Virus record (IMG/VR): IMGVR_UViG_3300030109_001891
Location: 1 to 25,580 of that record
Direction: 5' to 3' (one strand)
Length of the DNA: 25,580 bases
From: a virus
Made by a program: the position numbers and the translations under genes
The notes under the pieces: generated by a model
Told to the model about the DNA's origin: nothing
Database searches by the model: none
What the model saw: only the letters and a program-made list of their open reading frames with translations
Shown here: one piece after another, positions 1-14,621 of the stretch
Numbering within the stretch: the stretch's first letter is position 1
Layout: the number at the start of each line of letters is the position of its first letter

Positions 1-496
1 AATAGTCCTCGATCCATTCTTTTCGTTTCGGTTTATTTGTTTGTTTAAAATCTATTATGGCCTCTTTACCTTCGTAGATTCCTACACCATCGGTTGCACC
101 TGCGTACATTTCTGGATAAAATAAAACACATTCTGTGGCCCACAACTCATTGAGTCTACCTTTTAATCCCTGGTCCGCGATTATCTGTGCCATCTTCGTA
201 GCATGTCTACCTTCAGGCGTTAGATCCACAATAGGTTTATCTAACATATATCCTTCAAGAACCGAGTGCATAAGGGTCCCTCTCGATGCAGCAGTCTCAG
301 TAATTTTTTTAGCCTCAGCTTCGCCTACTCTATTTCGCCAGGAGTCGAGTGAAGCTTTCTTCTCGTCACTTTCGCAGGCTTTCAATATACTTGTAACACT
401 CGGTAACTTTTCGTCACCTACCAGGTAATGTCTTTTACCATCAATAATTTTACGAGTCGAAGTTGGGTAGTAAAATCTTTTATTTATCTTGATCAT
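1..496 (-). CDS. PD-(D/E)XK (RecB/Cas4-like) exonuclease, 3' part cut by window edge
   Basis: The first 165 residues are visible; the gene runs off the left edge. The protein carries a RecB/lambda-exonuclease-like core. A GTLMHSVLEG segment (residues 73-82, H77) is followed by E122, then AGATDGVG with D136, then IIDFKQTNK with D149-x-K151, the D...DxK arrangement of PD-(D/E)XK nucleases. Members of this family in phages degrade or resect DNA ends during replication, recombination or host DNA breakdown; which of these applies here cannot be told. The start is ATG at 494-496. It lies inside the end of the upstream HNH gene (17-nt overlap), which suggests translational coupling. No stop occurs in frame down to position 1. 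The nuclease class is well supported; exonuclease rather than endonuclease activity is inference from phage relatives. Confidence 0.85.
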   Translation of the reverse strand, partial: MIKINKRFYYPTSTRKIIDGKRHYLVGDEKLPSVTSILKACESDEKKASLDSWRNRVGEAEAKKITETAASRGTLMHSVLEGYMLDKPIVDLTPEGRHATKMAQIIADQGLKGRLNELWATECVLFYPEMYAGATDGVGIYEGKEAIIDFKQTNKPKRKEWIEDY

Positions 497-977
497 TTAT
501 TAATTCCTTTCCAATTCTTAAATAATTTTTCCAATCATCCGGGTTACTATTATGTTTTCTATCATTACAACCCACGCAACAAAATATAATATTGTTACTT
601 TGATAAGTTAGTCTCGGATCAAATCGGTCAATACTAAAGTTAGTATAGTTTTGTGTTGCACGATTTTTAGGTTGTCCTTTACCTCTAGTTCCTTTCTTGG
701 TTTCAAAAGTAAAAGGTTGCTCACAATATCTACAAAGCCTTCCATCTGATCCTGGAAATTTTTCTTTCATATTAATAATATGATTCATGTACAATCTCCA
801 AAATTCTTTTTTGTCCATAGACTCATGCGCTCTGTGACCACCATACTTTTCTATACTAGGCTTAAACTTTCTTGCAATGCAGGACATTATAAATCCACGT
901 TCCGTGTTCATGTATGCATAATCCATCTCTACTCTTTTTCTTAATACTTCGGGATCTTTAGGATTTTTGTAAGCCAT
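480..977 (-). CDS. HNH-type endonuclease-like protein
   Basis: A 165-aa protein with an HNH/zinc-binding arrangement in its second half. C82-x2-C85 comes first, then SIDRFDP (D117, R118) in the usual place of the catalytic segment. NIIFCCVGCNDRK follows (N129, C133/C134, C137, N138), the second metal ligand pair with the conserved Asn. The catalytic residue aligns as Asp-Arg rather than a clear His-His/Asp-His, so activity is not certain. The N-terminal 80 residues are not recognised. It overlaps the nuclease gene downstream by 17 nt and the methyltransferase gene upstream by 20 nt. It could be a homing-type or a DNA-processing phage nuclease; two nucleases side by side suggest a DNA metabolism role. 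Confidence 0.75.
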   Translation of the reverse strand: MAYKNPKDPEVLRKRVEMDYAYMNTERGFIMSCIARKFKPSIEKYGGHRAHESMDKKEFWRLYMNHIINMKEKFPGSDGRLCRYCEQPFTFETKKGTRGKGQPKNRATQNYTNFSIDRFDPRLTYQSNNIIFCCVGCNDRKHNSNPDDWKNYLRIGKELINDQDK

Positions 978-1620
978 TAGACCTTTCTAAACACATTTTA
1001 TTTTGACCACGTTCTATTATGTAAAAATCATAATGAGTTAATGCTTGTTGTATTACACGCATGTCATAAGTATCTACATCATCAAATACAAACCTAGTCC
1101 CTGGTCTAGATCGATTAGCAAAGAATAAAGCTTCATGTAGCACTGCAGCGGTAGTGTGGGGACCATCGAAGTGTACAAAGTCATAAGTGTTCATGATATT
1201 TTTTTGACCTTTGTAATAAATAGGTACACCCTGGCCAAAAGCATTAAAGTATTCAATGTCTTCCAATTGATATAAAATAAAATTTTCGTGCTTGTTAAAA
1301 GCAGTTAAGAAAGTTTGTTTCATAGAACTAGGATACGTTGGAGTCTTGAAAGAACCATCTGGATTATATAAAATATTACCCTCAAAGTCTGTCCATCTAG
1401 GAACTACTCCTCCTTGAGTATCTACATGATCATAGAGAATGTCCCCATAAGGATCTATTCCTATATGAAAATGATTTTTATTTTTAAAATTCTCCATGAT
1501 GACGTGAGAGCCGTAACCTTCACGAACACCAATTTCTACACTTAAATAAAAGTCTCGCGGACTTAATTGATCTGCCCACTTAGCAAGTAAGTTATAGTCT
1601 TTACTGTCTCCTTTAAGCAT
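958..1620 (-). CDS. Class I SAM-dependent methyltransferase-like protein (Methyltransf_24 type)
   Basis: A 220-aa protein with a Rossmann methyltransferase layout. VEIGVREGYG (28-37) fits motif I, GIDPYGD (54-60) follows as the second strand with its acidic ligand, and YDFVHFDGPH (146-155) plus RFVFDDVDTY (176-185) match the DGxH...DD pattern of Methyltransf_24/TylF-like enzymes that modify small molecules or sugars. It has no DPPY/NPPY motif, so it does not look like an adenine DNA methylase, and pairing with the adjacent HNH gene as restriction-modification is not supported. The substrate is unknown. The start is ATG at 1618-1620, whose last base in coding sense meets the stop of the next upstream gene. 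About 70 residues between motif I and the DGPH motif look like an insertion. Confidence 0.7.
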   Translation of the reverse strand: MLKGDSKDYNLLAKWADQLSPRDFYLSVEIGVREGYGSHVIMENFKNKNHFHIGIDPYGDILYDHVDTQGGVVPRWTDFEGNILYNPDGSFKTPTYPSSMKQTFLTAFNKHENFILYQLEDIEYFNAFGQGVPIYYKGQKNIMNTYDFVHFDGPHTTAAVLHEALFFANRSRPGTRFVFDDVDTYDMRVIQQALTHYDFYIIERGQNKMCLERSNGLQKS

Positions 1621-1838
1621 TAGTTTTCCTTTATATATAATTTAGATCGAAGTGATCTTACTTCTTCGATTAGTTTTTGATTGTAGTTATGTAGTTTCTC
1701 GTTCCTAAATTCTAAAATTTCTATCTGTTTAGTAAGGTCATTGGGACCCCGGTCATCAACCGGGGTCCCTTTCTTTTTTAATAACTCTAACTGTTCTGTT
1801 AGTTTATTGTACTCAATTATGTCTGCTTCACTCATCAT
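1620..1838 (-). CDS. Small predicted coiled-coil protein
   Basis: A 72-aa protein, rich in Leu, Glu and Lys, with two heptad-like stretches (about residues 1-21 and 33-67) separated by a short KKKGTPVDDRGPNDL linker. The DNA for that linker contains a perfect 10-bp inverted repeat (see the hairpin at 1743-1773), so base sequence there may be under selection for structure as well as coding. The start overlaps the stop of the upstream 60-aa gene as ATGA, which supports coupled translation. No family recognised. Confidence 0.6.
   Translation of the reverse strand: MMSEADIIEYNKLTEQLELLKKKGTPVDDRGPNDLTKQIEILEFRNEKLHNYNQKLIEEVRSLRSKLYIKEN
1743..1776 (+). terminator. Strong hairpin followed by T-rich tract, reading rightward inside a leftward gene
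   Basis: GGGACCCCGG (1743-1752) and CCGGGGTCCC (1760-1769) form a perfect 10-bp GC-rich stem with a 7-nt loop. It is followed on the plus strand by a T-rich run from 1770 (TTTCTTTTTTA). This is the form of an intrinsic terminator for rightward transcripts. It stands out sharply from AT-rich surroundings and lies wholly inside the 72-aa minus-strand gene. On the minus strand the T-tract is absent, so sense transcription should pass. Confidence 0.55.
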
Positions 1839-2017
1839 ATATTATATTTCATCAACCCATTAAATTTTTTGAGTTCATGCTCCGATATATTTTGCAGACC
1901 ATTGGTTCGGTTATAAATTTCACGTGCTTGTAATAACTTATCACTATTATCTTTTTCATAAGCTATAGCTTTGTTTCGACTTATAACCTCCAAATGTTCG
2001 TCTCTAAGTTCCGTCAC
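1835..2017 (-). CDS. Small hypothetical protein (60 aa)
   Basis: A short charged protein beginning MTELRDEHLEVISRNKAIAY, with no recognised domain and no membrane segment. Its stop overlaps the next start as ATGA and its own start overlaps the upstream stop as ATGA. It thus sits as one link in a tightly coupled run of four small genes (57-, 78-, 60- and 72-aa products) behind the promoter at 2478-2506. This packing is the main reason to accept it as a gene. Confidence 0.55.
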   Translation of the reverse strand: MTELRDEHLEVISRNKAIAYEKDNSDKLLQAREIYNRTNGLQNISEHELKKFNGLMKYNI

Positions 2018-2250
2018 GATGCTTTCTTAGTTTCAGCGTCACCAGTTAACATTAAAGGCTTTTGTGTAAAGTCAAAAGCATCATCGGTACTAATCAAGAT
2101 TTGAATAGTGTTGTCCGACTCCTTTGTCTCCAACATTTCTGCTGCTACTTTAAACTTCATAGCATCCTCGAATGTTTCTGCTTCTTTAATCACCGTCACA
2201 TAATCATTTGCATGTGAAAAGTGTATTCTTTTTACTACTGTATATTTCAT
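2014..2250 (-). CDS. Small hypothetical protein (78 aa)
   Basis: A 78-aa soluble protein with a pattern of alternating strands and a helix. MKYTVVKRIHFSHANDYVTV is followed by a FEDAMKFKVAAEMLE helix and QILISTDDAFDF; the alpha/beta look resembles small phage proteins of unknown role. It starts at ATG 2248-2250 behind a good ribosome binding site (AGGAGAAAGT, immediately upstream). It is the second gene after the ribbon-helix-helix regulator and is probably cotranscribed with it. Function unknown. Confidence 0.6.
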   Translation of the reverse strand: MKYTVVKRIHFSHANDYVTVIKEAETFEDAMKFKVAAEMLETKESDNTIQILISTDDAFDFTQKPLMLTGDAETKKAS

Positions 2251-2271
2251 ACTTTCTCCTGTATTGGTTGG

Positions 2272-2445
2272 TTAGTCTTTAAGTTTGCCATTTAATCTTT
2301 TGGCTTCTTTGTTTACTAGAATAGTTACTACCTGCGCTCTCGATACTTCGGGATCATCGGGTACTAACACTTTTCTAATTTTGTCAATCTTCGCATACGT
2401 TTCTTTTTTTATAGAAATGTTTTTGTATTTGCTAAAATCAGTCAT
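2272..2445 (-). CDS. Ribbon-helix-helix (Arc/CopG-like) putative transcription regulator
   Basis: A 57-aa gene read from ATG at 2443-2445 to TAA at 2272-2274. The order of elements fits a ribbon-helix-helix DNA-binding protein. A short polar beta strand, YKNISIKK (7-14), is followed by a first helix (ETYAKIDKIRKVL), a turn with PDDPEVS, and a second helix SRAQVVTILVNKEAKRL (35-51) beginning with the typical Ser-Arg N-cap. These dimeric proteins insert the ribbon in the major groove and often repress their own promoter. An AAAGGA ribosome binding site lies about 9 nt upstream of the start. A consensus-like promoter and a perfect palindrome lie directly upstream at 2473-2506, a plausible autoregulatory site. 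It is the only clear regulator in the window. The fold is inferred from pattern, not from a search. Confidence 0.65.
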   Translation of the reverse strand: MTDFSKYKNISIKKETYAKIDKIRKVLVPDDPEVSRAQVVTILVNKEAKRLNGKLKD

Positions 2446-2474
2446 TTGTTATATCCTTTCATTTTTAATATAAG
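2446..2474 (+). promoter_or_regulatory. Putative sigma70-like promoter for the rightward 93-aa gene
   Basis: TTGTTA (2446-2451), a 17-bp spacer, then TATAAG (2469-2474). The predicted start is near 2481, giving a leader of about 33 nt before ATG 2514, with a short AAGGG ribosome binding site at 2505-2509. The -35 match is only 4 of 6 and AT-rich DNA gives chance hits. Position and spacing are right. Confidence 0.4.
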
Positions 2475-2482
2475 GATATCCT
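2473..2482. promoter_or_regulatory. Perfect 10-bp palindrome, candidate operator
   Basis: AGGATATCCT is fully palindromic. It covers most of the -10 element of the leftward promoter (2478-2483) and the -10 edge to start region of the proposed rightward promoter. A dimeric ribbon-helix-helix protein bound here could block both. Binding is inference. Confidence 0.4.
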
Positions 2483-2506
2483 ACAAAATATTCTTCTTTA
2501 TGTCAA
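2478..2506 (-). promoter_or_regulatory. Sigma70-like promoter driving the regulator and genes to its left
   Basis: Read on the minus strand: TTGACA (plus positions 2501-2506), a 17-bp spacer, and TAGGAT (2478-2483). The -35 is a perfect consensus and the spacing is optimal. The predicted start is near 2471, about 26 nt before the regulator ATG. Confidence 0.65.
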
Positions 2507-2513
2507 GGGTGAT

Positions 2514-2795
2514 ATGAAATTTTTTTTAACCATATTTGTATGTTCAGTAATTAATCAAAACTGTGCTGAAGTTCCACCAACAAAGCATGATTATAAACGT
2601 CTATATGATAGTCACTATGAATGTGTACAGAAAGGACTCGGTGAGTCATACTCTATCTTGTATGATGGCGAGCTTTTTGCACAACCTGTTGTGGAGGCTT
2701 TAGAATTGTATCCCAAGTTTCATTGTGCGAAAATTGAAAATTATCAAGAGAGCGAACCACTTGATACCACTTCTCCCGAAGAGAAGGATCTTTAG
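2514..2795 (+). CDS. Small exported protein, hypothetical
   Basis: A 93-aa protein with an N-terminal hydrophobic stretch (MKFFLTIFVCSVIN) that looks like a short signal peptide, possibly a lipoprotein signal or membrane anchor. The next part has spaced cysteines (C10, C17, C37, C71) and a body with YDSHYECVQKGLGESYSIL and YPKFHCAKI. From memory, small phage proteins of this shape (hydrophobic start, YD-x-C-x-G-x-S, final FxC) recur in marine podoviruses. It is one of only three rightward genes here. The last 143 nt overlap a convergent minus-strand gene. A weak AAGGG ribosome binding site precedes ATG 2514. Function unknown; a periplasmic or inner-membrane role in infected cells is inference. 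Confidence 0.6.
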   Translation: MKFFLTIFVCSVINQNCAEVPPTKHDYKRLYDSHYECVQKGLGESYSILYDGELFAQPVVEALELYPKFHCAKIENYQESEPLDTTSPEEKDL

Positions 2796-2850
2796 TTTTA
2801 TTATACTCTCTAGCTAACTCATCAGCTTTTTTACTAATTTCATCAATCAT
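2653..2850 (-). CDS. Small helical protein (65 aa), antisense to the exported-protein gene
   Basis: A charged, helix-rich protein (MIDEISKKADELAREYNKTK, then DPSLREKWYQVVRSLDNF). Its ATG overlaps the stop of the upstream oxygenase gene as ATGA, the junction used throughout this operon, which favours a real gene. Its last 143 nt lie opposite the 3' end of the rightward 93-aa gene. The last 15 or so residues look less regular than the start. No family recognised. Confidence 0.5.
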   Translation of the reverse strand: MIDEISKKADELAREYNKTKDPSLREKWYQVVRSLDNFQFSHNETWDTILKPPQQVVQKARHHTR

Positions 2851-3377
2851 TTCATAAACATTTGTACAGATATTCTAGGTATAGTAGGAGATAAAACAGG
2901 ATTAACTTTATGATTTATTGGTGCTTTTACAATAAGTAACGAATTTCCTTGAACAGGAATAAACCCATGCCCATTATTATGTGTGAACATAAACTCACCA
3001 CCCCATTGATTACTCCATCTATTATTTACATAGTATGTAGCTCCGTATTTCCATGTGTTATCACTATGCCAATTAATTCCTGTTCCCTTTTCCATATAAT
3101 GAATGGTAGTAGTTATTTTTTTTAATTGTAATTGAAAAAATTTATTTTGTTTAGTTAATGTTTTTAAAATTTCAAAGGGAGGATAATTAGAAACCTCAAC
3201 TCTTTTAGGAGCCTTTATATTTTTTATTAAAGATTTGTCCCACGTCCCACCAACTGACTTTAAATTTATTTTTTTACGTTCCTTAAAAATAGAATTATGA
3301 ATACCTTTGTAGTTATTATAATCTAAAAAATGTTGTATGTAATATAATTGATCCGGTATGTGATATATTAATTTCAC
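2847..3377 (-). CDS. 2OG-Fe(II) oxygenase-like protein
   Basis: A 176-aa protein with the double-stranded beta-helix ligands of 2-oxoglutarate/Fe(II) dioxygenases. INWHSDNTW gives H104-x-D106, APINHKV gives the distal H156, and R168 in IPRISVQMF is placed to bind 2-oxoglutarate. The QWGGEFMF strand and a GNSLLIVKAP strand between them match prolyl-hydroxylase-like phage enzymes that act on proteins or other targets. The start is GTG at 3375-3377, overlapping the upstream stop as GTGA. It is separated from a second, distinct oxygenase only by a 44-aa gene. The substrate is unknown. Confidence 0.8.
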   Translation of the reverse strand: MKLIYHIPDQLYYIQHFLDYNNYKGIHNSIFKERKKINLKSVGGTWDKSLIKNIKAPKRVEVSNYPPFEILKTLTKQNKFFQLQLKKITTTIHYMEKGTGINWHSDNTWKYGATYYVNNRWSNQWGGEFMFTHNNGHGFIPVQGNSLLIVKAPINHKVNPVLSPTIPRISVQMFMK

Positions 3378-3508
3378 CCCTGTCCTTTGTATCGTGTCAA
3401 TTTTTTTTGACGTTTCTCGCTTTTATTTAAATTTTTCTTGTGTTGGCGAGGCCCTCTCTTTTTAGGTTTGTCTCTAGGAATGTAGTGAGTAAATTTTTGT
3501 TTAGCCAT
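3374..3508 (-). CDS. Very basic 44-aa protein
   Basis: Read from ATG 3506-3508 to TGA 3374-3376. The product is dominated by Lys and Arg, with segments YIPRDKPKKRGPRQHKKN and NKSEKRQKKLTRYKGQG. No hydrophobic core is visible, so it is probably disordered and nucleic-acid or ribosome binding. From memory, similar tiny basic proteins with an RPG-x-H-KK pattern recur in pelagiphages and cyanophages. It overlaps the second oxygenase gene upstream by 8 nt and the first downstream by 4 nt. A run of eight A residues occurs in the gene. Function unknown. Confidence 0.65.
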   Translation of the reverse strand: MAKQKFTHYIPRDKPKKRGPRQHKKNLNKSEKRQKKLTRYKGQG

Positions 3509-4103
3509 TATTTACTGTAAGATTACCTGAAATAGATATTCTTTCTCCCTCACTTTGAAAATGATTAACATAATGATGTAGACTAGCAGGAAAAATAAAA
3601 AAATCTCCTACTTCTGGCATAAAAGTGTGTTGGTTGATATGATATTTACCCGTCTCTAAAGTATACATAAAATTAATTGCACCTGGGCGTGTATTATTTG
3701 AAACGGTGTTGTTAGCTTCTTCTTTTAATTCTTTAGGAATTTGAGTAAAGATAACAAAAGATAAATCGTCAGTGTGTGTATGAATAGGATTGGATTCAAA
3801 CTTAGTCATATAATTAACCCATGCAGATATTAATTCAATTTTATTACCTAACATTTTAGAAGTATAGTCAGAGTAAGCTATGGTGTAGCTATGTAAATAA
3901 GGATTAATTATTGGAAATAATTTTTTATGATCTATTTCATATTCATTTTTTATTAAACCAGCCAAACTACGTCTGTAATCTTTTGATTTTTTAGTACATA
4001 ATTTTTTTATAGAATTTAATTCTTCTTGAGTCACAGAAGTTTTATATAAAAATGGACCCCAATGAAAAAAATCATAGTTTATTGTTTTATTTGGTTTGTC
4101 CAT
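3501..4103 (-). CDS. Second 2OG-Fe(II) oxygenase-like protein (2OG-FeII_Oxy_5 type)
   Basis: A 200-aa protein matching the putative 2OG-Fe(II) oxygenase pattern common in marine phages. AWVNYMTKFESNPIHTHTDD gives H110-x-D112, PGAINFMYTL is the following strand, PEVGDFFIFPASLHHYV gives H176/H177, and ERISISGNL provides R188. It differs clearly in sequence from the neighbouring oxygenase, so the pair is not a recent duplication. Its stop overlaps the 44-aa gene start by 8 nt, and its start overlaps the zinc-ribbon gene by 17 nt. The role is unknown; phage enzymes of this kind may modify proteins, nucleotides or metabolites. Confidence 0.75.
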   Translation of the reverse strand: MDKPNKTINYDFFHWGPFLYKTSVTQEELNSIKKLCTKKSKDYRRSLAGLIKNEYEIDHKKLFPIINPYLHSYTIAYSDYTSKMLGNKIELISAWVNYMTKFESNPIHTHTDDLSFVIFTQIPKELKEEANNTVSNNTRPGAINFMYTLETGKYHINQHTFMPEVGDFFIFPASLHHYVNHFQSEGERISISGNLTVNNG

Positions 4104-4305
4104 TTTCTTTTATAAATTCTTTATCACTTTCACTTAATCTTAAATACCTTATACTACCATTAATGTGTTGTCTAGTGTCACTTCCACAGTTAGTACATCT
4201 ATAATACTCAGAAACTATAGCTACTAATATAGTCTCTTCTTGACATTCTTCACATACCCCATGAACAGTGTCTATTTTAGCAAACACTTTAAATGTTTTA
4301 GACAA
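4087..4305 (-). CDS. Zinc-ribbon protein, small
   Basis: A 72-aa protein with two CxxC knuckles, C18-x2-C21 and C37-x2-C40, the spacing of a treble-clef or zinc-ribbon fold. A SIRYLRLSESDKEFIKENG tail follows. Such proteins in phages may bind nucleic acid or RNA polymerase, but nothing here decides that. It overlaps the endolysin gene upstream by 8 nt and the oxygenase downstream by 17 nt. Confidence 0.65.
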   Translation of the reverse strand: MSKTFKVFAKIDTVHGVCEECQEETILVAIVSEYYRCTNCGSDTRQHINGSIRYLRLSESDKEFIKENGQTK

Positions 4306-4774
4306 GATCTACTGCCTTTCCAATAATTGGTTTGTATTTAGTTTTTTTATCTTCACGATATGCTCGTAAATATTGATGTCTAGGATTAAAAGGTATGTAG
4401 CTTGCGTGGATCCATCCCGAGTTAGGTTCGCCGGGCGTGTAGTACTCGAGGATCAATTGATCTACCTCACAATTCATTTTAACCCAATCTGCTACTTCAG
4501 CGTTGTCAATTCCCATACATTCGAAATCAACCGCCTCAGCTTTTGCATGCTGTGAATTAACTGAGCTACCGATGGCAGCACAAAGTTCTGGTGAACGATA
4601 GCCGCTGGTCACCTTGACTCTACCGAATTGATCACGTACTGGCTGTAAAATATTTTCACACAATGCTTTTAATTTATCTATTTGATCAGCGTTAGGCTCG
4701 TTATCAATACCTTTACGTATTGCTGTATCTGATTTTGTTAATTCCTGAAGGGAAAAATTTCGACTAAGATTCAT
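4298..4774 (-). CDS. M15-family peptidase endolysin
   Basis: A 158-aa protein with the Peptidase_M15 layout. VTSGYRSPELCAAIG (55-69) is the family's substrate-binding segment, SQHAKAEAVDF supplies zinc ligands H76 and D83, and WIHASY supplies H123. The length fits a single-domain phage enzyme that cleaves peptide links in peptidoglycan. There is no signal peptide, so release probably depends on a holin. The genes upstream (4774-6600) encode small membrane-anchored proteins and probably form the lysis region with it. The start forms a TAATG junction with the preceding gene. Confidence 0.88.
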   Translation of the reverse strand: MNLSRNFSLQELTKSDTAIRKGIDNEPNADQIDKLKALCENILQPVRDQFGRVKVTSGYRSPELCAAIGSSVNSQHAKAEAVDFECMGIDNAEVADWVKMNCEVDQLILEYYTPGEPNSGWIHASYIPFNPRHQYLRAYREDKKTKYKPIIGKAVDLV

Positions 4775-4992
4775 TATTCCAATATTAGTTTTTTTATTGA
4801 CAAAGATCCATCAATATTTTTTTCTAATTCCGCTGAACCCTTATAGCATTTGTAGGTTACAGACTCACTATATTGTCTTTCTGCCTGACGTTTGCCACGT
4901 AAACACTGTGCCATACCGTCTACCTGATAACGCGCCTCTTTAATTTCTGCGTTTACAAACATCAACAGAGCCACTACAGATTCAATAATCAT
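4774..4992 (-). CDS. Small protein in lysis region, hydrophobic N-terminus
   Basis: A 72-aa protein with a short hydrophobic start (MIIESVVALLMFVNAEI), then a polar part with two cysteines (C30, C49) in MAQCLRGKR and TYKCYKG. It may be exported with one disulfide. It is linked by TAATG to the endolysin and by ATGA to the 140-aa gene upstream. From memory, proteins of this shape are common beside M15 endolysins in pelagiphages. No defined function; a spanin-like accessory is possible but unproven. Confidence 0.6.
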   Translation of the reverse strand: MIIESVVALLMFVNAEIKEARYQVDGMAQCLRGKRQAERQYSESVTYKCYKGSAELEKNIDGSLSIKKLILE

Positions 4993-5411
4993 TGGCCATT
5001 CCCATTTTTATAATGTTGATCTCTTGATGCATCTTTTAATTTTTCTATGTCTTGTAAAACTTTGTCCATTTGTTTTGTTAAAAATTCTATGTTGACTTTG
5101 TTTAAAGCCATTGAGTCGATGTGTTTACTTAACTTATCCGTGGTCTTATAAAGATCCTCGATCATCATGTACTGCTCAGAATCCGCGGGCAGTGATCCTA
5201 ATTGTCCACGTGGCCATTTGATTCTAAACTCTGTATTCTCTTCAAGATCTTTTTCCATAATTTGTATACGTGTGTCTGCAACATTAAGACGTTCTATAAT
5301 TTGAAAATAGCCCATCGTGCCGAGTGCTACGATAACGATCAAACTAGCAACCGTCTTCATAGGCATTTGCACGGCAGCTGATTCAGATATGTTTAATGGT
5401 TTGTTACTCAT
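4989..5411 (-). CDS. Membrane-anchored coiled-coil protein
   Basis: A 140-aa protein with one clear transmembrane segment at about residues 19-37 (TVASLIVIVALGTMGYF). A long helical, heptad-rich part follows (about 40-60 and 85-128), with an aromatic EFRIKWPRGQLGSLPADSEQ segment between. The N-in/C-out topology with a periplasmic coiled coil would suit an i-spanin or a holin accessory, but no lipoprotein partner is recognised. ATGA junctions on both sides. Confidence 0.65.
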   Translation of the reverse strand: MSNKPLNISESAAVQMPMKTVASLIVIVALGTMGYFQIIERLNVADTRIQIMEKDLEENTEFRIKWPRGQLGSLPADSEQYMMIEDLYKTTDKLSKHIDSMALNKVNIEFLTKQMDKVLQDIEKLKDASRDQHYKNGNGQ

Positions 5412-5938
5412 CTTACAATTTTATCACCCATAAGTTTGATGTCAGGATTTTCTTTTTTATACTTGTCTTTAATTGAATCCCAGTAGCTTCCATCAGGTTT
5501 AATAATTTTATCATCAGGAATTATTATACCAGAACATTTAGAAACCAAAAGTTTGAAGTTAGGATTATTGTTTAAAGTGGGGTTTTTATTGACTTTTCCA
5601 CACATTTTCATGAGTTCCAACTGTTGTTTTAACTCCATATTTTCTTGTTGAACAGCTTTAAATTCATCAGTGCAAGCAGAGCCTAAATACTTTCTCCAAG
5701 TTAATCTTAATGACCTATCATCAGAAGGACTAGTATAATTATTATCGGGATTAAAATGCCTATAACTGTTTTCTGAATCTCTTTGTTCGACTGATAAGCT
5801 GAGATCACCAGTGCTACAAGTATTAGTACCATTATTAAGATACTCATTTCTAGGATAAGCCGGTTCCATAAAACACAGCACAACAAATAGAATAATTAAT
5901 GCACCTGTAAAATAATAATTCATCCTGGCTATCTCCAT
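5408..5938 (-). CDS. Exported or membrane-anchored cysteine-containing protein
   Basis: A 176-aa protein with an N-terminal hydrophobic stretch at about residues 8-23 (YYFTGALIILFVVLCF). The following domain holds four cysteines (NTCSTGD, GSACTDE, MKMCGKV, SKCSGII), enough for two disulfides, and a helical EFKAVQQENMELKQQLELMK. The KPDGSYWDSIKDKYKKENPD tail looks structured. Met at codon 6 is an alternative start. An AGGATG ribosome binding site precedes the chosen ATG. It sits in the presumed lysis region. From memory, related proteins occur in pelagiphages, with no known role. Confidence 0.65.
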   Translation of the reverse strand: MEIARMNYYFTGALIILFVVLCFMEPAYPRNEYLNNGTNTCSTGDLSLSVEQRDSENSYRHFNPDNNYTSPSDDRSLRLTWRKYLGSACTDEFKAVQQENMELKQQLELMKMCGKVNKNPTLNNNPNFKLLVSKCSGIIIPDDKIIKPDGSYWDSIKDKYKKENPDIKLMGDKIVR

Positions 5939-5946
5939 AATACATC

Positions 5947-6258
5947 CTAATAATTAATTTCCCGGTTAAGATCTTTAATATCATAACTGTGTTCTCTAAC
6001 TTGATCTGCTAGTTGTCTGTATAAATTTTCTGCCATCTGCCATGTTGCTTCAGCAGAAGATAGTCTTGTATTGATATCTGTAATATTTTTTTCTAATACG
6101 CCTACATCTCTTTCAAGATTAGTAAGTCTTAATTCGTTTTGATTAATAGTGTCAGTAAGATTTACAATGTAACGAACGCCAGTAAATGTTCCGACTAGCA
6201 CTGAAGCTACTACGGGTACCATTACTATATTTTTCTTTAACAGATCTACTAAATTCAT
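5947..6258 (-). CDS. Single-pass membrane protein with coiled coil (holin- or spanin-like)
   Basis: A 103-aa protein with one transmembrane segment at about residues 11-33 (IVMVPVVASVLVGTFTGVRYIV). A heptad-rich helix follows to the end (LRLTNLERDVGVLEKNITDI and onward). Size and topology suit a holin-like or i-spanin-like lysis protein; sequence alone does not choose. The ribosome binding site GGAG is embedded in the last codons of the upstream zinc-ribbon gene, eight to ten bases from ATG 6256-6258. Confidence 0.65.
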   Translation of the reverse strand: MNLVDLLKKNIVMVPVVASVLVGTFTGVRYIVNLTDTINQNELRLTNLERDVGVLEKNITDINTRLSSAEATWQMAENLYRQLADQVREHSYDIKDLNREINY

Positions 6259-6265
6259 TAAGCAT

Positions 6266-6427
6266 TTATCTCCAGAATATTAATTTTTTAAACCAAGTCT
6301 TGATGGCTTCTATCCAATTGTGGTCCAGTGTTACTGTTTCCCAGACACAATCACAGAATTTACATTCCGCAATACCTCTATGTCTGTGTCCACAGTCCAT
6401 ACATATTCCATTTACTACTGTAATCAT
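6266..6427 (-). CDS. Small zinc-ribbon protein
   Basis: A 53-aa protein read from ATG 6425-6427. CMDCGHRHRGIAECKFCDC holds two CxxC pairs, with histidines between, and fits a small zinc ribbon. A tryptophan-rich amphipathic end follows (HNWIEAIKTWFKKLIFW) that could lie on the membrane. The frame is open further upstream to 6484. I prefer the later start because it forms a TAATG junction with the 57-aa gene, and the upstream extension is entirely antagonised by that gene's reading frame. Function unknown. Confidence 0.55.
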   Translation of the reverse strand: MITVVNGICMDCGHRHRGIAECKFCDCVWETVTLDHNWIEAIKTWFKKLIFWR

Positions 6428-6600
6428 TACAGTAGTCCTATGATTATTAACACTATGATAAGTGTAAAGATTCCAAAATGCCAATTCAATAATTCTTTTG
6501 GATGAAATAGGCTAGGATTCATTATTACATTGTACAAAAGATGTACTTGATCTTTAGTAAAAGACCACACCTTTCCTACTATATTTTTTAACTGATTCAT
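6427..6600 (-). CDS. Small membrane protein (57 aa)
   Basis: Read from ATG 6598-6600 to TAA 6427-6429. A soluble N-terminal part (MNQLKNIVGKVWSFTKDQVH) is followed by a C-terminal hydrophobic segment GIFTLIIVLIIIGLL that ends at the last residue, giving a tail-anchored topology. The preceding gene's stop and an AAGGGGGACTT ribosome binding site lie directly upstream; the downstream zinc-ribbon gene begins at a TAATG junction with its stop. It may be part of the lysis region. Small holin or unrelated membrane peptide cannot be separated. Confidence 0.55.
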   Translation of the reverse strand: MNQLKNIVGKVWSFTKDQVHLLYNVIMNPSLFHPKELLNWHFGIFTLIIVLIIIGLL

Positions 6601-6609
6601 AAGTCCCCC

Positions 6610-7266
6610 TTAATCGTTAGTTTCGTCTAAATTTTTCAGCTTATAATCATAGCTACCTTCTTCATGTTCGTCGGTAATCCATTTAGCTGAATTTTCTACG
6701 GAGTATATTTTACTGCTTACTAGTCTATTGATCAAGTTTTTATTTGGGTCCACACCCATTGATGCATCAAACATTTTAAGCCTATTATTGGGCTGTATTG
6801 CAAAGTTTCCGTCCTCTAATTCAAGAACGTGACCACACTTATGTTGGTCAGGTTTCTCTGCATAACCAAAATTTAACTCATTAAAGTCTCCTGCGCACCA
6901 GTCAATTGTAAATAAATACTTACCTTTACGTTTTACTTTACGTCTAGATATGTATTGCATAGTGGCACCTGCTAATTCATAAAAAGTTGTAACACTTACG
7001 TTGTAACTAAAGCTGTCCCACATCACTAACTCATCAAGTGGTAATTCTTTGACTCCAGGTTTGGTGCAGAAAGCTGAGATAGGTGCTCTCCACCATAGAC
7101 CACCATCTTCCATTAAGAAATGAAACATAGGTACTCTGTTTGGAATAGAACTAAAACCAAATACTCCTACTTCAAAATATTTATCGTGTGAATCTTTTTG
7201 ATCTCTTAGATAGTTACCCCTGACATAACATTCTATGACAGGTATGTTTGCATTTAGATAAGCCAT
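6610..7266 (-). CDS. Conserved phage protein next to DNA polymerase, unknown function
   Basis: A 218-aa protein read from ATG 7264-7266 (MAYLNANIPVIECYVRGNYL), two bases after the polymerase stop. The frame extends to a TTG at 7290 inside the polymerase gene, but the ATG fits the operon better. Features include MFHFLMEDGGLWWRAPISAFC, a LDELVMWDSFSYNVSV stretch, YLFTIDWCAGDFNE and a GHVLELEDGNFAIQPNNR segment; it is a soluble, aromatic-rich alpha/beta protein with no catalytic motif I recognise. From memory, close relatives occur in many marine podoviruses and siphoviruses near replication genes. Confidence 0.7.
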   Translation of the reverse strand: MAYLNANIPVIECYVRGNYLRDQKDSHDKYFEVGVFGFSSIPNRVPMFHFLMEDGGLWWRAPISAFCTKPGVKELPLDELVMWDSFSYNVSVTTFYELAGATMQYISRRKVKRKGKYLFTIDWCAGDFNELNFGYAEKPDQHKCGHVLELEDGNFAIQPNNRLKMFDASMGVDPNKNLINRLVSSKIYSVENSAKWITDEHEEGSYDYKLKNLDETND

Positions 7267-7268
7267 AA

Positions 7269-9125
7269 TTAACCATTTATCTCTCCCCAAGTGTTTGCTA
7301 ATTCGCAGTCTACTTTGTTAGGGACTTCCAGAGTAACTGCATCCTGCATGATCTCAACAATTTTGTTTGCTTGTTCTTGATCTTTAACAGAAATACAAAG
7401 TTCATCATGAATTTGTACGTGAGCCACTATACCATTTTTGTATAAATCTAACATGGCTTTCTTTGTCATATCAGCCGCGCTACCTTGAATTAATTTGTTT
7501 AAAGATTTGTAAGTAAATGCTCTTCTAATCCCTGGTCCATGTTCCTGTAATGCATCCTCATGAGGCAATGCTTTATGCATACCGAATTGATTAGGTTCCC
7601 ATAAATGAAACCTACACAATCGTCCCAAGAGAGTTCGAATTTGACCACGCTCTTGGGCACGATTGGAAGCACTATTCATTAACTGCTTAACGAAGGGAAC
7701 TTTAGCGTGGTATTGATCGAACAATTCTACTGCTTTGTCTTTTGATACACCTAGTTCGGCCTGGAGTTTTGCTTTACCCATACCATAAAATAATCCAAGG
7801 TTAATTACCTTGGCTTGTGATCTTGGAATCTTTGCCATGTCTGCTACGACCTGGTGAAAGTCCGTTGAGGTGTCATTTTCATAATTATCTATTACGTCAT
7901 TTACAGACGGAAATTTGTGTAAAGAGGCATAATGCACTACCAACCTAGGTTCTTGCTGAGAATAGTCAAAACTACCCCATCTATGGCCCTTCTCGGGTAT
8001 AAATATAGACCTAATCATAGGTCCAAGATCCTTGTTTCTAGCAGGAAGTTGCTGTAAATTAGGGTTCGAGTAACTAAATCTACCTGTCACAGTTCCGCCT
8101 TGATCTGACCTTATTTGATTTATGTCAGCATGGATACGACCTTTGTGTTCATGTTTAATTATGGTATCTATAAATGTAGTATGAGCCTTATTAACTTCTC
8201 TAGCCTTAGCAATCATTCTAACTACAGGATGTTCATGATTCGAAATAAAATTCTTAGTAAAAGAAGGTGCCTTTGATTTTGCAGTTCTTTCATAAGCTAA
8301 ACCAAGTTTATCAAAAACTTTGGCAACACTTCTTGCAGCCATTAGTTGAACATCTACTCCTGTTTCTTTTTTTATTTGGTGGAGTAATGTTTCTTCTTGC
8401 AATGTTAATTGTTGCTTCAATTTATGAGCTCTTTCAACGTCCACTCTCACCCCAAGAAATCTCATGTCTACCAGACAAGGAAACAGATCCGTCTCAAGTT
8501 CAAAAATAGATTCTACATCTTGGTGTAGTAATTCTTTTTTAAATATCTGCCAAAGTTCTAAAGTAAGTTCTGCATCTTTCTCTGCGTAAGATCCCACATA
8601 CATTGCTGGCAGTTGCCACATATCTGCTTTAGGATCTAATCCTCTAGACTTTGCTTCTTCATTTAATGCAGATTCATTTTTACCGTGACCTAAATAATCC
8701 CAAGACAAACTATTTAAATCAAATCTAAATCTATTCTCATCAATCAATGATGCTGCAATCATAGTGTCTACTATCTGTCCATTAATCTTAAGACCCATAG
8801 ATCTAATCCAACAAACATCATACATAGCGTTGTGAAATATTTTTATAGCATCACTATCTAATATATCTTGAAACCAATTTAAGGTTCTCTTACGATCCAT
8901 GTTTGGCCCTGATCCGTGAGCAATTGGAAAATAAAATTTTCTACCCGGGACAGCAACAGCAATACCTACTACTTCACCATTACCAATAATAGCACCACTA
9001 CCTTTAGATTTTAAGTCGGGATCTCTTGTCTCTAAGTCAATTGCAATCTCATCATATTTTCTTAGATCTGGATACTCTTCTGGTTCATTCCATTCAGTCT
9101 GTGCTTCAAATAGAGGTACTTTCAT
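7269..9125 (-). CDS. polA: Family A DNA polymerase with 3'-5' exonuclease
   Basis: A 618-aa replicative polymerase. The exonuclease domain shows DLET (D30, E32), HNAMYD (N99, D103) and YAEKD (Y180, D184), all expected carboxylates present. The polymerase domain shows FDYSQQEPRL (D387, motif A), RSQAKVINLGLFYGMG (R435, K439, Y447, motif B) and VQIHDEL (H573, D574, E575, motif C). L443 aligns with E. coli Phe762. There is no 5'-3' exonuclease domain, as usual for phage enzymes. In published virioplankton surveys Leu at this site is widespread and has been linked to slower or temperate replication. The start overlaps a 36-aa gene upstream as ATGA. Confidence 0.97.
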   Translation of the reverse strand: MKVPLFEAQTEWNEPEEYPDLRKYDEIAIDLETRDPDLKSKGSGAIIGNGEVVGIAVAVPGRKFYFPIAHGSGPNMDRKRTLNWFQDILDSDAIKIFHNAMYDVCWIRSMGLKINGQIVDTMIAASLIDENRFRFDLNSLSWDYLGHGKNESALNEEAKSRGLDPKADMWQLPAMYVGSYAEKDAELTLELWQIFKKELLHQDVESIFELETDLFPCLVDMRFLGVRVDVERAHKLKQQLTLQEETLLHQIKKETGVDVQLMAARSVAKVFDKLGLAYERTAKSKAPSFTKNFISNHEHPVVRMIAKAREVNKAHTTFIDTIIKHEHKGRIHADINQIRSDQGGTVTGRFSYSNPNLQQLPARNKDLGPMIRSIFIPEKGHRWGSFDYSQQEPRLVVHYASLHKFPSVNDVIDNYENDTSTDFHQVVADMAKIPRSQAKVINLGLFYGMGKAKLQAELGVSKDKAVELFDQYHAKVPFVKQLMNSASNRAQERGQIRTLLGRLCRFHLWEPNQFGMHKALPHEDALQEHGPGIRRAFTYKSLNKLIQGSAADMTKKAMLDLYKNGIVAHVQIHDELCISVKDQEQANKIVEIMQDAVTLEVPNKVDCELANTWGEING

Positions 9126-9232
9126 TTTTTATAACCATATCCTTTTTTTCTACTTCCATATAATTTTTGCCATGACCATGAAGTTAAAGCTGTGGAATAA
9201 TGATATATTTTTTCTAGTATGTACTTAATCAT
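9122..9232 (-). CDS. Tiny basic protein (36 aa)
   Basis: Read from ATG 9230-9232 to TGA 9122-9124. The product begins MIKYILEKIYHYSTALTSW and ends GSRKKGYGYKK: an amphipathic aromatic helix with a Lys/Arg/Gly/Tyr tail. It fills the gap between the 66-aa gene and the polymerase exactly. Its start overlaps the upstream stop as ATGA and its stop overlaps the polymerase start as ATGA, which is strong evidence that it is translated. No family or function recognised. Confidence 0.55.
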   Translation of the reverse strand: MIKYILEKIYHYSTALTSWSWQKLYGSRKKGYGYKK

Positions 9233-9429
9233 TTTTTTACCTCGTATACATATTTGTTTTCTATTATTTTAGTCATCTTATCTTTGTTACTAAATGCATA
9301 TAAAGCTGCACTATAATCATGAGGAAATATTTCCCATGCAAGGTCTTTCTCTAGTCCAAGATAAATTTCTAAATTAAATTTATTTTTAGCAAACTTAATT
9401 GTTTTGCGTACAGTAGATTTTTTTGGCAT
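9229..9429 (-). CDS. Small hypothetical protein (66 aa)
   Basis: A basic protein (MPKKSTVRKTIKFAKNKFNL) followed by a more acidic, aromatic middle (EKDLAWEIFPHDYSAALYAF). No recognised domain. It joins the DUF3310 gene upstream by TAATG and the 36-aa gene downstream by ATGA, inside the replication operon. Confidence 0.6.
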   Translation of the reverse strand: MPKKSTVRKTIKFAKNKFNLEIYLGLEKDLAWEIFPHDYSAALYAFSNKDKMTKIIENKYVYEVKK

Positions 9430-9677
9430 TACTTTTTCTTTTTCATGTCGTTCATTTTTAACATCTCTAGCTGACAGTAATGTACAATCTTTTTAAGGTC
9501 TTCTACTCCCCCCTTCCGCTGATAACGACAAACGTATTTCACAACATTGCCTTGAAAGAATGAGAGATCATTTTTAGAAATAAACTCGTAAGGTTGAATG
9601 GGAAATTTTGTGTAGTGATTCCCGCCTACCTGAGTATACTGTGGAAATGATTCTTTAAATATATCTTCTGCTGTCAT
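9429..9677 (-). CDS. DUF3310-family protein
   Basis: An 82-aa protein read from ATG 9675-9677. QVGGNHYTKFPIQPYEFI is the DUF3310 signature, followed by SFFQGNVVKYVCRYQRKGGVEDLKKIVHYCQL, which matches the rest of the family (annotated in some phages as a nucleotide-kinase-like SaV protein). The frame stays open to 9755 within the helicase gene, but the chosen ATG overlaps the helicase stop as ATGA and gives the usual domain length. Biochemical role not established for this family. Confidence 0.85.
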   Translation of the reverse strand: MTAEDIFKESFPQYTQVGGNHYTKFPIQPYEFISKNDLSFFQGNVVKYVCRYQRKGGVEDLKKIVHYCQLEMLKMNDMKKKK

Positions 9678-11134
9678 AGTGGATATCCCTTTCGTTCTAT
9701 TTTTGCTCTCATTAAATATAAGTTTCTTTTTGCTCTCGTGCAACCTACATACCATACTCTGTGCTCTTCGTCACGCTTTATTATACTTTTGGTCGTAGCT
9801 TCCCTTATCTTTTTAGCATTGTCCAATACTAAAATTACATTCTTACATTCACCACCTTTTGCAGCATGAATGGTAGATACTTTGATTCGTGCTTCATCAC
9901 TTAATTTTTCTTTATTTGACAACATTAATCTTATATAAATTTTGTCTTCAGCAGGTGCGTTATCAAAACATTCAAACCATTTTAAATTATAATTCATTCT
10001 GTCTTTTATAAGTTCTCTGTTTCCTAAGTATTCTATTATATCTGCTCTGGCGGTATCAGTTATTGTTTCACCATTTAACCATTTATTGTGACTAACAATT
10101 GCTTTGTAAAGTTTAGTGTTGTAACTTTTTTGATGTCTGTTTTCATAATACAAACCTTTTACTTTTAAAAGATCACATACTTCTTTTGCTCTGGATAAAG
10201 TCCTAGTTAGTATTAACCAGTTGTCCTGGTAAAGATCTACATTTTCTAAACTATTGATTTTACTACACAATCCTTCTTCATCTCTTGGCAAATAATTTTT
10301 AGTTGCTCTGAGTCCTGCAATTCTTGCAGTAATAATTTCAGATACATCCTGTACTGCTTTTGGAATTCTTCTTGATCTTGATAATACTTTTTCTGTAGCA
10401 GGTTCTTGAATGAACCTATCAACATCTGCACCTGCCCAACCATATATTGCTTGGTCATCATCCCCAGCTAAATAAATATTTTTTGATTTAGATTTTAATA
10501 TGTCATAAAATTTCCATTGTATTGGAGATAGATCCTGAGCTTCATCAATAAATACTACATCAAAGTTTGGAATTTTATCTGGTTGTTGTACAATATCGTG
10601 AATCATATCTGTAAAGTCTACTAAGTTATTTATGTCTGGATGTTTGTAGTGATTATAATTTGCTTCAATGTGTTTTAACAAATCAGGTTTTACATTTGTT
10701 GAATGTTCACCAGTACAGTATTCATCCCATACTGGAATATCTTTTTCTTTTGCTTTTAAAATAATTTGAAAGTATTCATTATCGCAGGTTAAGTAAGGTG
10801 AGGCATCAGCATCTTTTTTAGCATTGACTCTTATACTTAATTGTTTTCCAAGATCATTGTAATGATAGTCTTGCATAACGTTTTCTTCTCTAAGTCCTAG
10901 ACTATGAAAAGCTAGAGAGTGTAAAGTTTGAAAATATCTAAGTTGTTTCTTTTTATACTCAGGATTTTTTTTAAGCATTCTATCTCTTGCTTCATGCGCT
11001 GCTTTACGAGTAAATGCAAAGTAACCTATTTTATTTACTGGCGTACCTACTCTTATGTAAGCCATGGCTCTTCGAATTAATTTTTCTGTTTTCCCTGTAC
11101 CTGGAGGGCCATATATCTTTGTAACCTTTGTCAT
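9674..11134 (-). CDS. UvrD/Rep-type superfamily 1 DNA helicase
   Basis: A 486-aa helicase with the SF1A motifs in order. GPPGTGKT (9-16) is the Walker A, YFAFTRKAAHEAR the Ia motif, FIDEAQD (195-201) the Walker B, and YLAGDDDQAIYGWAGA (221-236) the Q-to-motif III block. STIHAAKGGECKNVIL is motif V, and WYVGCTRAKRNLYL motif VI. At under 500 residues it is shorter than cellular UvrD or Rep (about 670-720 aa), as is common in phages. It may unwind the fork or act in recombination; no DnaB-like helicase is visible. It joins the primase gene by a TAATG junction. Confidence 0.93.
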   Translation of the reverse strand: MTKVTKIYGPPGTGKTEKLIRRAMAYIRVGTPVNKIGYFAFTRKAAHEARDRMLKKNPEYKKKQLRYFQTLHSLAFHSLGLREENVMQDYHYNDLGKQLSIRVNAKKDADASPYLTCDNEYFQIILKAKEKDIPVWDEYCTGEHSTNVKPDLLKHIEANYNHYKHPDINNLVDFTDMIHDIVQQPDKIPNFDVVFIDEAQDLSPIQWKFYDILKSKSKNIYLAGDDDQAIYGWAGADVDRFIQEPATEKVLSRSRRIPKAVQDVSEIITARIAGLRATKNYLPRDEEGLCSKINSLENVDLYQDNWLILTRTLSRAKEVCDLLKVKGLYYENRHQKSYNTKLYKAIVSHNKWLNGETITDTARADIIEYLGNRELIKDRMNYNLKWFECFDNAPAEDKIYIRLMLSNKEKLSDEARIKVSTIHAAKGGECKNVILVLDNAKKIREATTKSIIKRDEEHRVWYVGCTRAKRNLYLMRAKIERKGYPL

Positions 11135-12756: not shown

Positions 12757-12771
12757 CTTTCCTCTTTAGTA

Positions 12772-12827
12772 GGGGTGACTCTACTCTCGCTTTGCCACCC
12801 CTGTTGCAACCATTCCCGGAGGGGAAT
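12772..12827. promoter_or_regulatory. Two inverted repeats between ssDNA-binding-like and primase genes
   Basis: The 72-bp gap holds GGGGTG...CACCCC (12772-12777 and 12796-12801, 18-nt loop) and ATTCCC-GGAG-GGGAAT (12812-12827). The second sits immediately after the upstream gene's stop. Neither has a T-run on the minus strand, so a partial terminator, processing site or ribosome-site shield before the primase are all possible. Confidence 0.35.
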
Positions 12828-12828
12828 T

Positions 12829-13611
12829 TTACATAATGTGAGCCGCTCCATCCGTAGACTTAGCAGTATCTTCCTCACCATGTTTAACTTGAATATCTCC
12901 TTTAGAAATACTTTCAGAAAAACTCTTAGCTTGTTGATAGGTGTTAGCGTCTTGGATTGGACCTGTCTTGCTCACTTCCCAACCAAACCACGTACCTTTG
13001 TCGTTAGACTGTTGTACGGTTTTTAGTTGATAAAGATGGCTAAAAGATGCGGGTGTGAACATACCGTTCTTACCTTGCATCTTTATACTTTGCATCATAC
13101 TATTCCATTTTCTACTAATTTTTAATTGAGTAGATTTCATAGCAATCAACGCAGTGGTTGGTGAAGCACTGTTGACTACAACAAAATGTTGAGCAGTCTT
13201 CTCGATATAATTACCGTTTGGAAGTCTATCTTTAAAGTCTGCACCTCTAGTTGTTTTAGTCATGATGTCACTTGATGAAGGATAGATATTAACTGGCGCA
13301 CCAGATCCATCTTTTCCTCTATCTTTCCACTCGACATACTCGAGTTTGTAGTAACATGGAATCACTGGGACTCCTTGCTCACCATTGAAGAGTTCACCCG
13401 TTACTGAATTATAAATCATTCCAGGTTCTGCACCTTCAACATACTTGCCGTCTCTCTTGTTTACTTCAGGAGATAACTGTCCAAGTATTTTAAGAAACGG
13501 TAATGCAAGATCATCTTGTCCTACCGCTCCAGTCTGCATATTTGCATCGGCTTCAAACACAACGTTTGTAGACAATGCACCATTCTTTTTTATTGTTGGT
13601 TCTTTGTTCAT
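12829..13611 (-). CDS. Probable phage ssDNA-binding / replication accessory protein
   Basis: A 260-aa soluble protein with no catalytic motif. Notable segments are LALPFLKILGQLSPEV near the start, EPGMIYNSVTGELF, VPVIPCYYKLEYVEWKDRG and LKISRKWNSMMQSIKMQGKN. The KGTWFGWEV segment and a polar, acidic-rich C-terminal tail (EEDTAKSTDGA) follow. A beta-rich core with an acidic tail and a place at the head of the replication operon suggest a gp2.5-like or other ssDNA-binding role. From memory, relatives in marine phages are annotated both as ssDNA-binding and as hypothetical, so the role is tentative. The ribosome binding site is AAGGAAATAG. Confidence 0.55.
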   Translation of the reverse strand: MNKEPTIKKNGALSTNVVFEADANMQTGAVGQDDLALPFLKILGQLSPEVNKRDGKYVEGAEPGMIYNSVTGELFNGEQGVPVIPCYYKLEYVEWKDRGKDGSGAPVNIYPSSSDIMTKTTRGADFKDRLPNGNYIEKTAQHFVVVNSASPTTALIAMKSTQLKISRKWNSMMQSIKMQGKNGMFTPASFSHLYQLKTVQQSNDKGTWFGWEVSKTGPIQDANTYQQAKSFSESISKGDIQVKHGEEDTAKSTDGAAHIM

Positions 13612-13615
13612 GTTT

Positions 13616-14164: not shown

Positions 14165-14200
14165 GTCTTTTTACCTTTCGTAGTAGTTAATGATTCTGTT

Positions 14201-14228
14201 AATATAATGTCATAATATCCTATGTCAA
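14201..14228 (-). promoter_or_regulatory. Sigma70-like promoter of the leftward replication operon
   Basis: On the minus strand: TTGACA (plus 14223-14228), 16-bp spacer, TATATT (14201-14206). The predicted start is near 14194, about 30 nt upstream of ATG 14164. This gap of 66 bp is the only intergenic space before a run of genes reaching at least 6610. Confidence 0.65.
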
Positions 14229-14230
14229 GT

Positions 14231-14581: not shown

Positions 14582-14591
14582 AACTTTCCTA

Positions 14592-14621
14592 TTGACATCT
14601 ATTATAGGGTTATGTTATCAC
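14592..14621 (+). promoter_or_regulatory. Putative rightward promoter of the SNF2 gene
   Basis: TTGACA (14592-14597), 18-bp spacer and TATCAC (14616-14621, 4 of 6 matches). The start would fall near 14628, leaving a leader of about 17 nt to ATG 14645. The -10 is weak, so activation may be needed. Confidence 0.45.

Follow-up and report, generated by a model that had tools for sequence, protein, structure and literature searches.

A candidate autorepressor and a recurring promoter box in relatives of Pelagibacter phage HTVC027P

When a palindrome lies between a small regulator gene and a divergent neighbor, does it serve the two genes beside it or a larger set? The question was raised by the 25,580-base record of an uncultivated virus (the window, meaning the whole stretch that was analyzed), to which Pelagibacter phage HTVC027P and phage 023Pt_psg01 are the closest isolates. 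A sequence-only reading of the window had placed two divergent promoters around the palindrome and had proposed a compact autoregulated switch linking a ribbon-helix-helix regulator to a small exported protein. Pelagiphages infect SAR11, which excerpts of the HTVC027P transcriptome paper describe as the most abundant marine microorganisms (PMC12753301).

The 57-aa regulator is encoded on the minus strand (2272 to 2445) and is the first gene of a leftward run that continues with open reading frames (ORFs) at 2014 to 2250, 1835 to 2017, 1620 to 1838, and 958 to 1620 and with genes for an HNH-type nuclease (480 to 977) and an exonuclease (2 to 496), both assigned by PHROGs. On the other side of the intergenic region, the plus strand encodes a 93-aa four-cysteine protein (2514 to 2795; PHROG 19893). 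Elsewhere in this part of the window, a terminator-like hairpin on the plus strand (1743 to 1769; 11 pairs, 9 of them G-C, then a T run) sits within the opposite-strand ORF 1620 to 1838, and two neighboring, different genes (2847 to 3377 and 3501 to 4103) both match 2OG-Fe(II) oxygenase families. A search for RNA families found none in the window.

The regulator gene and its promoter

The structure model of the regulator (pLDDT 80) places helices at residues 14 to 27 and 36 to 50 behind an extended N terminus, with no strand in the monomer; the ribbon-helix-helix strand pair arises in the dimer, according to the accessible part of a paper on archaeal virus regulators (PMC5569661). Comparison with solved structures gave weak matches, led by Arc (1myl; Z 3.7, rmsd 5.1, 45 residues aligned), the N-terminal domain of MazE6 (7wj0; Z 3.6, rmsd 4.8, 47 aligned), and a second Arc entry (1bdv; Z 3.6, rmsd 6.3, 46 aligned). 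These top three of six rows are all ribbon-helix-helix proteins, and the three rows with other folds (Z 2.8 to 3.3) are tied with them or nearly so. Foldseek alone returned no match below E 4 for the model, the 57-aa sequence had no match in Pfam or PHROGs, and NCBIfam gave nothing useful. A sequence search of solved structures yielded nothing with the regulator profile and nothing convincing with the 023Pt_psg01 homolog (27% identity over the aligned part), which did match PF01402 (RHH_1) at E 0.0023, with 18.3 bits against a curated cutoff of 20.5. The fold of the regulator is likely ribbon-helix-helix, and HTVC027P carries the protein as gp21.

Read on the minus strand, the regulator promoter consists of a −35 hexamer TTGACA (2506 to 2501), a 17-nt spacer, and the −10-like hexamer TAGGAT (2483 to 2478), followed by the Shine-Dalgarno sequence AAAGGA of the regulator gene (2454 to 2459, minus strand), which has similar counterparts in the upstream regions of relatives. 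TAGGAT is proposed to be an operator half-site as well, within the candidate operator TAGGATATCCT (2473 to 2483, minus strand), which contains the perfect palindrome AGGATATCCT (2473 to 2482). The −35 hexamer overlaps the likely Shine-Dalgarno sequence AAGGG (2505 to 2509) of the divergent gene. Within the window alone, neither the promoters nor the palindrome exceed chance, and it is conservation that separates them. A promoter scan of positions 1 to 16000 gave 58 promoter-like sites against 69.7 in shuffles, with the leftward site listed at 10 of 12 matches and the rightward site not listed, while TAGGATATCCT with up to two mismatches occurred at 9 places in the window, one of them exact, against 8.1 by chance.

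A search of viral contigs found 204 stretches that encode a relative of the regulator, and the best 80 of these were retrieved. From all loci collected, 80 distinct 75-bp regions upstream of the regulator gene were assembled as a conservation set, made up of regulators that fit a start-of-protein pattern, with very divergent homologs lying outside it. TTGAC was present in 78 of the 80 regions. The leftward promoter reached a score of 10 of 12 or better in 49 of the 62 regions whose partner is divergent (6% of shuffles) and in 12 of the 18 other regions (11% of shuffles). TAGGAT or ATCCTA occurred in 68 regions, where 200 rounds of dinucleotide shuffling gave a mean of 8.7 and a maximum of 20, and the half-site TRGGAT, in either orientation, was found in 73. 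The leftward promoter described from the window alone is therefore both present and conserved. The palindrome was borne out in part: it is where it was said to be, and its half-site is widely kept across relatives, but the perfect form recurs in only 25 of the 80 regions.

The placement of the box within these regions was variable. It was present in the forward orientation only in 34 regions; in 28 of them its distance from TTGAC was 18 nt, and in the other 6 it was 13 nt, too close for a −10. It was solely reversed in 26 regions (22 of these at 22 to 24 nt) and present as both half-sites in 7; 11 regions had no box within 40 nt, and 2 had no TTGAC. A core promoter element would not change position and orientation in this way, whereas an operator could. 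It was also retained at the regulator's own promoter despite differing upstream neighbors, which is what autoregulation predicts. A viral repressor that controls its own gene should have a conserved putative operator there, and a TRGGAT half-site stands in that position in the 73 regions noted above. The compact promoter-operator ahead of a likely ribbon-helix-helix regulator, as it was first read, is supported by this comparison of sequences, and the pattern of conservation fits autoregulation.

The divergent neighbor

The claimed rightward promoter, TTGTTA (2446 to 2451) and TATAAG (2469 to 2474) separated by 17 nt on the plus strand (2446 to 2474 overall), is spelled out in the window, yet it is not conserved. 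It scored at least 10 of 12 in 7 of the 62 regions with a divergent partner, against 8% of shuffles, and the exact pair was found in 4 of these 62 relatives. With scores no better than those of shuffles, it was rejected.

Relatives of the 93-aa protein were found in 25 stretches of viral contigs. Neighbors of the regulator were surveyed in 80 loci, 4 of which had too little upstream sequence (L031, L049, L052, and L066), leaving 76 that were readable. By reading of the locus list, a divergent four-cysteine gene was present in 54 of the 76, mostly about 60 to 70 bp from the regulator. A related gene lay co-directionally just upstream in 15 (L010, L014 to L018, L020, L022 to L024, L026, L029, L034, L068, and L069), and the partner was recognized in neither arrangement in 7 (L053 to L057, L070, and L071). 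Identical regulator proteins occur with the partner divergent or co-directional, and the 93-aa gene is an optional partner of the regulator. Weak tblastn matches to the partner family in HTVC034P, Aegir, and Kolga (E 0.05 to 0.07) were not used as evidence.

Four cysteines are kept across 35 aligned members of the 93-aa family. The model of the window protein (mean pLDDT 85) is a compact alpha/beta domain that opens with a strand at residues 2 to 11 (pLDDT about 95) and continues through another strand and helices to a final strand. N-terminal residues modeled as a confident core strand argue against a cleaved signal, and the neighbor, first taken for a secreted-type protein, is probably not exported; export is no longer the leading view. 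Fold matches were weak (PurS at Z 4.7, with nothing below E 3 from Foldseek for the model), so no function is proposed.

The box over other promoters

Recurrence of the box over other promoters is not visible from one window. In a first scan of 17 records, all encoding the regulator, TTGACN{15,23}TAGGATA was found in 15 records at 26 places, and the reversed pattern was found in none of the 17. Hexamers were then ranked in 24 records that encode the regulator, fragments included, by collecting each TTGAC[AT] followed by a Shine-Dalgarno sequence and an ORF, which gave 205 places. Of all hexamer pairs downstream of TTGAC[AT], TAGGAT/ATCCTA came first, at 68 of 205 places against 3.7 expected, and it was again first when the regulator's own promoters were removed (49 of 182 against 3.3 expected); because the records are related and many sites are orthologous promoters, these counts and those that follow are not independent of each other and overstate independence. 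Since TAGGAT is workable as a −10, the ranking was repeated without the −10 register. With the regulator promoters also excluded, TAGGAT was first of 4096 hexamers (19 of 165 against 1.3 expected), and it was first when only the spacer was considered (15 of 165 against 0.7 expected); ATCCTA ranked 14th and 15th, respectively, under the same exclusions.

Genes downstream of boxed promoters in the 24 records form 19 clusters, of which the regulator is one, and by reading of the list the off-register boxed sites belong to roughly a dozen families of genes. Four of the 24 records had no boxed promoter followed by a Shine-Dalgarno sequence and an ORF. Box positions cluster near the −35 hexamer, with 71 of 90 occurrences within a 230-nt stretch falling 0 to 39 nt from TTGAC. 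Inverted pairs were present among the distinct boxed places, TAGGATAATCCTA at 6 and TAGGATTATCCTA, TAGGATAGTCCTA, and TAGGATATCCTA at 2 each. Taken as a whole, the boxed places away from the regulator gene are putative further operators at other viral promoters, of the kind looked for in an autoregulated viral repressor. Covariation of box variants (TAGGATA or TGGGATA) between the regulator promoter and other promoters was seen in one record (G020) and was mixed in two (W02 and G008), and it was not used. A near-identical leader, TATAGGATATTATATGAAAGGAATAAATATG, precedes different genes in four records (G002, G003, G004, and G011), as if a promoter cassette had been shared or its cargo swapped.

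Twelve further pelagiphage isolates were searched with the regulator profile, and none matched except HTVC028P, which was kept as a control despite its weak homolog (E 2e-5). The looser pattern TTGACN{0,23}TAGGATA was found in 4 of the 12, at one place each, and the 4 boxed control places stay in the counts. A higher-sensitivity search of HTVC023P, intended as a control lacking the regulator, found a very divergent regulator-type protein at 8538 (E 0.0026). In the same isolate (W03), ATGGGA replaces TAGGATA at promoters 13014, 16083, and 16551, with ATGGGATA in two of the three. Because it has both a divergent regulator-type protein and TGGGATA promoters, HTVC023P was left out of the control set, which then held 11 isolates. 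The box was present at 61 of 189 places, compared with 4 of 33 across the 11 controls, a contrast with a Fisher p of only 0.02. Outside the −10 register, TAGGAT ranked 70th in the controls. The Skadi-5 record had neither a regulator profile match nor the looser pattern.

The window itself contains a second box, TAGGATA (14216 to 14222, minus strand), placed directly behind TTGACA (14228 to 14223) in the spacer ahead of a separate −10, TATATT (14206 to 14201). The first gene behind it (13616 to 14164, minus strand) encodes a 182-aa protein of unknown function (PHROG 2378), two relatives of which are annotated as "putative DNA ends protecting protein" and "host-nuclease inhibitor protein." Among 78 relatives of this gene with at least 60 nt of upstream sequence, TTGACATAGGAT was kept in 40; the other 38 lacked the box, and many of these showed a different upstream sequence. 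Among 21 records with the gene that were searched, the regulator is encoded in 10, and in 9 of those the region upstream of this gene is box-free.

Expression data bearing on the box come from the isolate HTVC027P. Excerpts of its transcriptome paper report that the phage has no RNA polymerase of its own and depends on the host enzyme, that its early genes are all of unknown function, and that gp33 and gp34 are the sole members of an extra temporal cluster at 6 to 9 h; gp32, just behind gp33, is not named within that cluster in the same excerpts (PMC12753301). Both gp33 and gp34 lie behind boxed promoters, with gene starts 46 to 48 bp away from promoter first bases at 17395 and 17718 on the minus strand. 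The expression support consists of two genes named in the text. Further boxed genes of HTVC027P are 463 to 1005 (a relative of gene 13616 to 14164), gp21 (the regulator), gp36, and gp38. With a regulator, a box, and a small number of candidate target promoters now named, the expression order of HTVC027P becomes testable using a single protein and several DNA probes.

Regulator homologs were also found on 12 bacterial single-cell or metagenome contigs (L293 to L304). The six closest (L293 to L298) are boxed, and the six more divergent ones (L299 to L304) have no box in 110 nt. Five of the divergent homologs (L299 and L301 to L304) lie on contigs labeled Pelagibacteraceae and one (L300) in a metagenome bin, and one of these contigs is 206 kb long. 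The divergent homologs of L302 and L304 have neighbors that we take to be hisG and rmuC, and L302 carries an exonuclease that by eye resembles that of window positions 2 to 496. Contigs labeled Prochlorococcus (L295) and Flavobacterium (L297) carry a pelagiphage-type regulator with a boxed promoter, for which infection, carry-over, or mislabeling are possible explanations.

A proposed regulon, its alternatives, and known systems

We consider it reasonably probable, from comparisons of sequence, that in these phages, which would depend on the host RNA polymerase, the 57-aa protein acts as an autorepressor of the ribbon-helix-helix type and governs a small regulon. It looks like a self-limiting switch for a gene set, rather than a private link to one neighbor. 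The protein would bind TRGGATA half-sites, single or in inverted pairs such as TAGGATATCCTA or TAGGATAATCCTA, with TAGGATATCCT and TTGACATAGGATATTATG as candidate binding sites, and these sites would overlap the −35/−10/start region of sigma-70-type promoters. At the regulator promoter of the window, the half-site would double as the −10, so that bound protein would shut out host RNA polymerase and cap the level of the regulator. As it accumulated, the protein would turn down other boxed promoters, including that of gene 13616 to 14164 and those of at least 10 further gene families in relatives. The analysis shows the leftward promoter, the conserved box, its recurrence over other promoters, and its variable position and orientation; binding of the protein to the box, repression through that binding, and the resulting timing are what we infer. 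More broadly and more tentatively, a group of lytic SAR11 phages that lack an RNA polymerase may time a gene set by means of a 57-aa master repressor and a mobile TRGGATA promoter-operator box, in which the half-site can be the −10, with cassettes placed before unrelated genes recruiting members to the regulon; we regard this wider proposal as possible, if short of probable.

An alternative that we see as unlikely is that the box is the operator of another protein, be it a regulator of the SAR11 host or a different factor of the phage. The pairing of the 57-aa protein with the box is our inference, HTVC023P has TGGGATA promoters with only a very divergent regulator-type candidate, and nine regulator-encoding records lack the box at the gene 13616 to 14164 promoter region. 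Set against these points are the retention of the box at the regulator's own promoter under differing upstream neighbors and the pattern among bacterial contigs, where the closest homologs are boxed and the more divergent ones are not. There is rather less to recommend the idea that TAGGAT is only a −10 hexamer favored by many phages, with the palindrome incidental and the small protein acting elsewhere, which we judge to be quite improbable. In scans of viral collections, for which the share of matches followed by an ORF was used in place of raw counts, TTGACA-17-TAGGATAT was followed by a Shine-Dalgarno sequence and an ORF in 81 of 122 among the matches listed, from assorted viral contigs, and the permuted pattern in 8 of 119 among the matches listed; the regulator was the next gene in only 11 of the former, again among the matches listed. 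This promoter-like behavior in unrelated viral contigs makes TAGGAT a workable −10 in itself, and because it can be an ordinary −10 at spacer 17, that position alone proves nothing. TAGGAT is also enriched in the −10 register of the regulator-bearing records (rank 7 of 4096), and in that register of the 11 controls AGGATA comes first with 3 of 33 and TAGGAT 11th with 2. A pure −10 role was tested by omitting the register, and TAGGAT was first of 4096 hexamers outside it as well. Upstream of gene 13616 to 14164 the box occupies the spacer and the promoter has a −10 of its own; the box also stands solely reversed in many regulator upstream regions and forms paired half-sites at several boxed places. 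As a separate observation, TG was often seen by eye shortly before TAGGAT in viral contigs L305 to L424, and TG-preceded TAGGAT may be a phage −10 variant deserving a look.

The switch proposed in the sequence-only reading, in which two divergent genes tie the regulator to a small exported protein, now seems very unlikely. The partner is divergent in most readable loci, and at a distance of about 60 to 70 bp a protein bound between the genes would be near both starts, but the rightward promoter is not conserved, the partner is co-directional or unrecognized in the remaining loci, and its N terminus is predicted to be a core strand. We give hardly any credence to a toxin-antitoxin pair in which the ribbon-helix-helix protein is the antitoxin and the four-cysteine protein the toxin. 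Ribbon-helix-helix antitoxins control their own promoters, and the regulator has a weak structural match to the MazE6 N-terminal domain. A type II toxin-antitoxin system would have both genes in one operon, whereas here the two genes diverge, both in the window and at 54 of the 76 readable loci, and the partner goes unrecognized in 7; in addition, the 93-aa partner has no convincing fold match, and a toxin-binding tail would hardly fit within 57 aa.

A viral autorepressor with extra sites, such as the one favored here, is known as a kind. A search of open-licence literature (subscription papers and preprints lay outside it) turned up no account of such a regulon in phages of this group, and the words "promoter" and "operator" are absent from the main text, as accessible, of the HTVC023P-type genome paper. 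Arc and Mnt of phage P22 are small phage-coded ribbon-helix-helix repressors with an inverted-repeat operator at promoters; P22, a temperate phage, has a single control region of this kind. The 57-aa protein would resemble them as a small phage-coded ribbon-helix-helix repressor with an inverted-repeat operator, Arc being here only a structure match; unlike in P22, boxed promoters are scattered here, and the isolate HTVC027P is called lytic in the excerpts of its transcriptome paper (PMC12753301). CtrA sites in phages of alphaproteobacteria are likewise described, in the accessible part of the source, as one recurring box over phage promoters, but CtrA belongs to the host and its site is TTAA-N7-TTAA, whereas the candidate here is phage-coded and its box differs (PMC9437464). 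Skadi-1, an HTVC010P-type pelagiphage, is similarly reported to have no phage RNA polymerase; it is another phage type, and an operator is not named in the excerpts of that report (PMC10504331).

The comparison with SvtR of SIRV1 and AvtR of AFV6, ribbon-helix-helix regulators of archaeal viruses, concerns mode of action, not sequence relation or family membership (PMC5569661, in its accessible part, for this and the following statements on both proteins). The present case differs in involving a bacterial tailed phage, sigma-70-type promoters, and short TRGGATA half-sites over the core promoter to which binding is putative, and AvtR also activates, unlike the mode proposed here. The likeness lies in a virus-coded ribbon-helix-helix protein of small size repressing the promoter of its own gene while host RNA polymerase is used, a role the 57-aa protein may share by analogy, and in the presence of further sites in the viral genome, three for SvtR and eight potential ones for AvtR.
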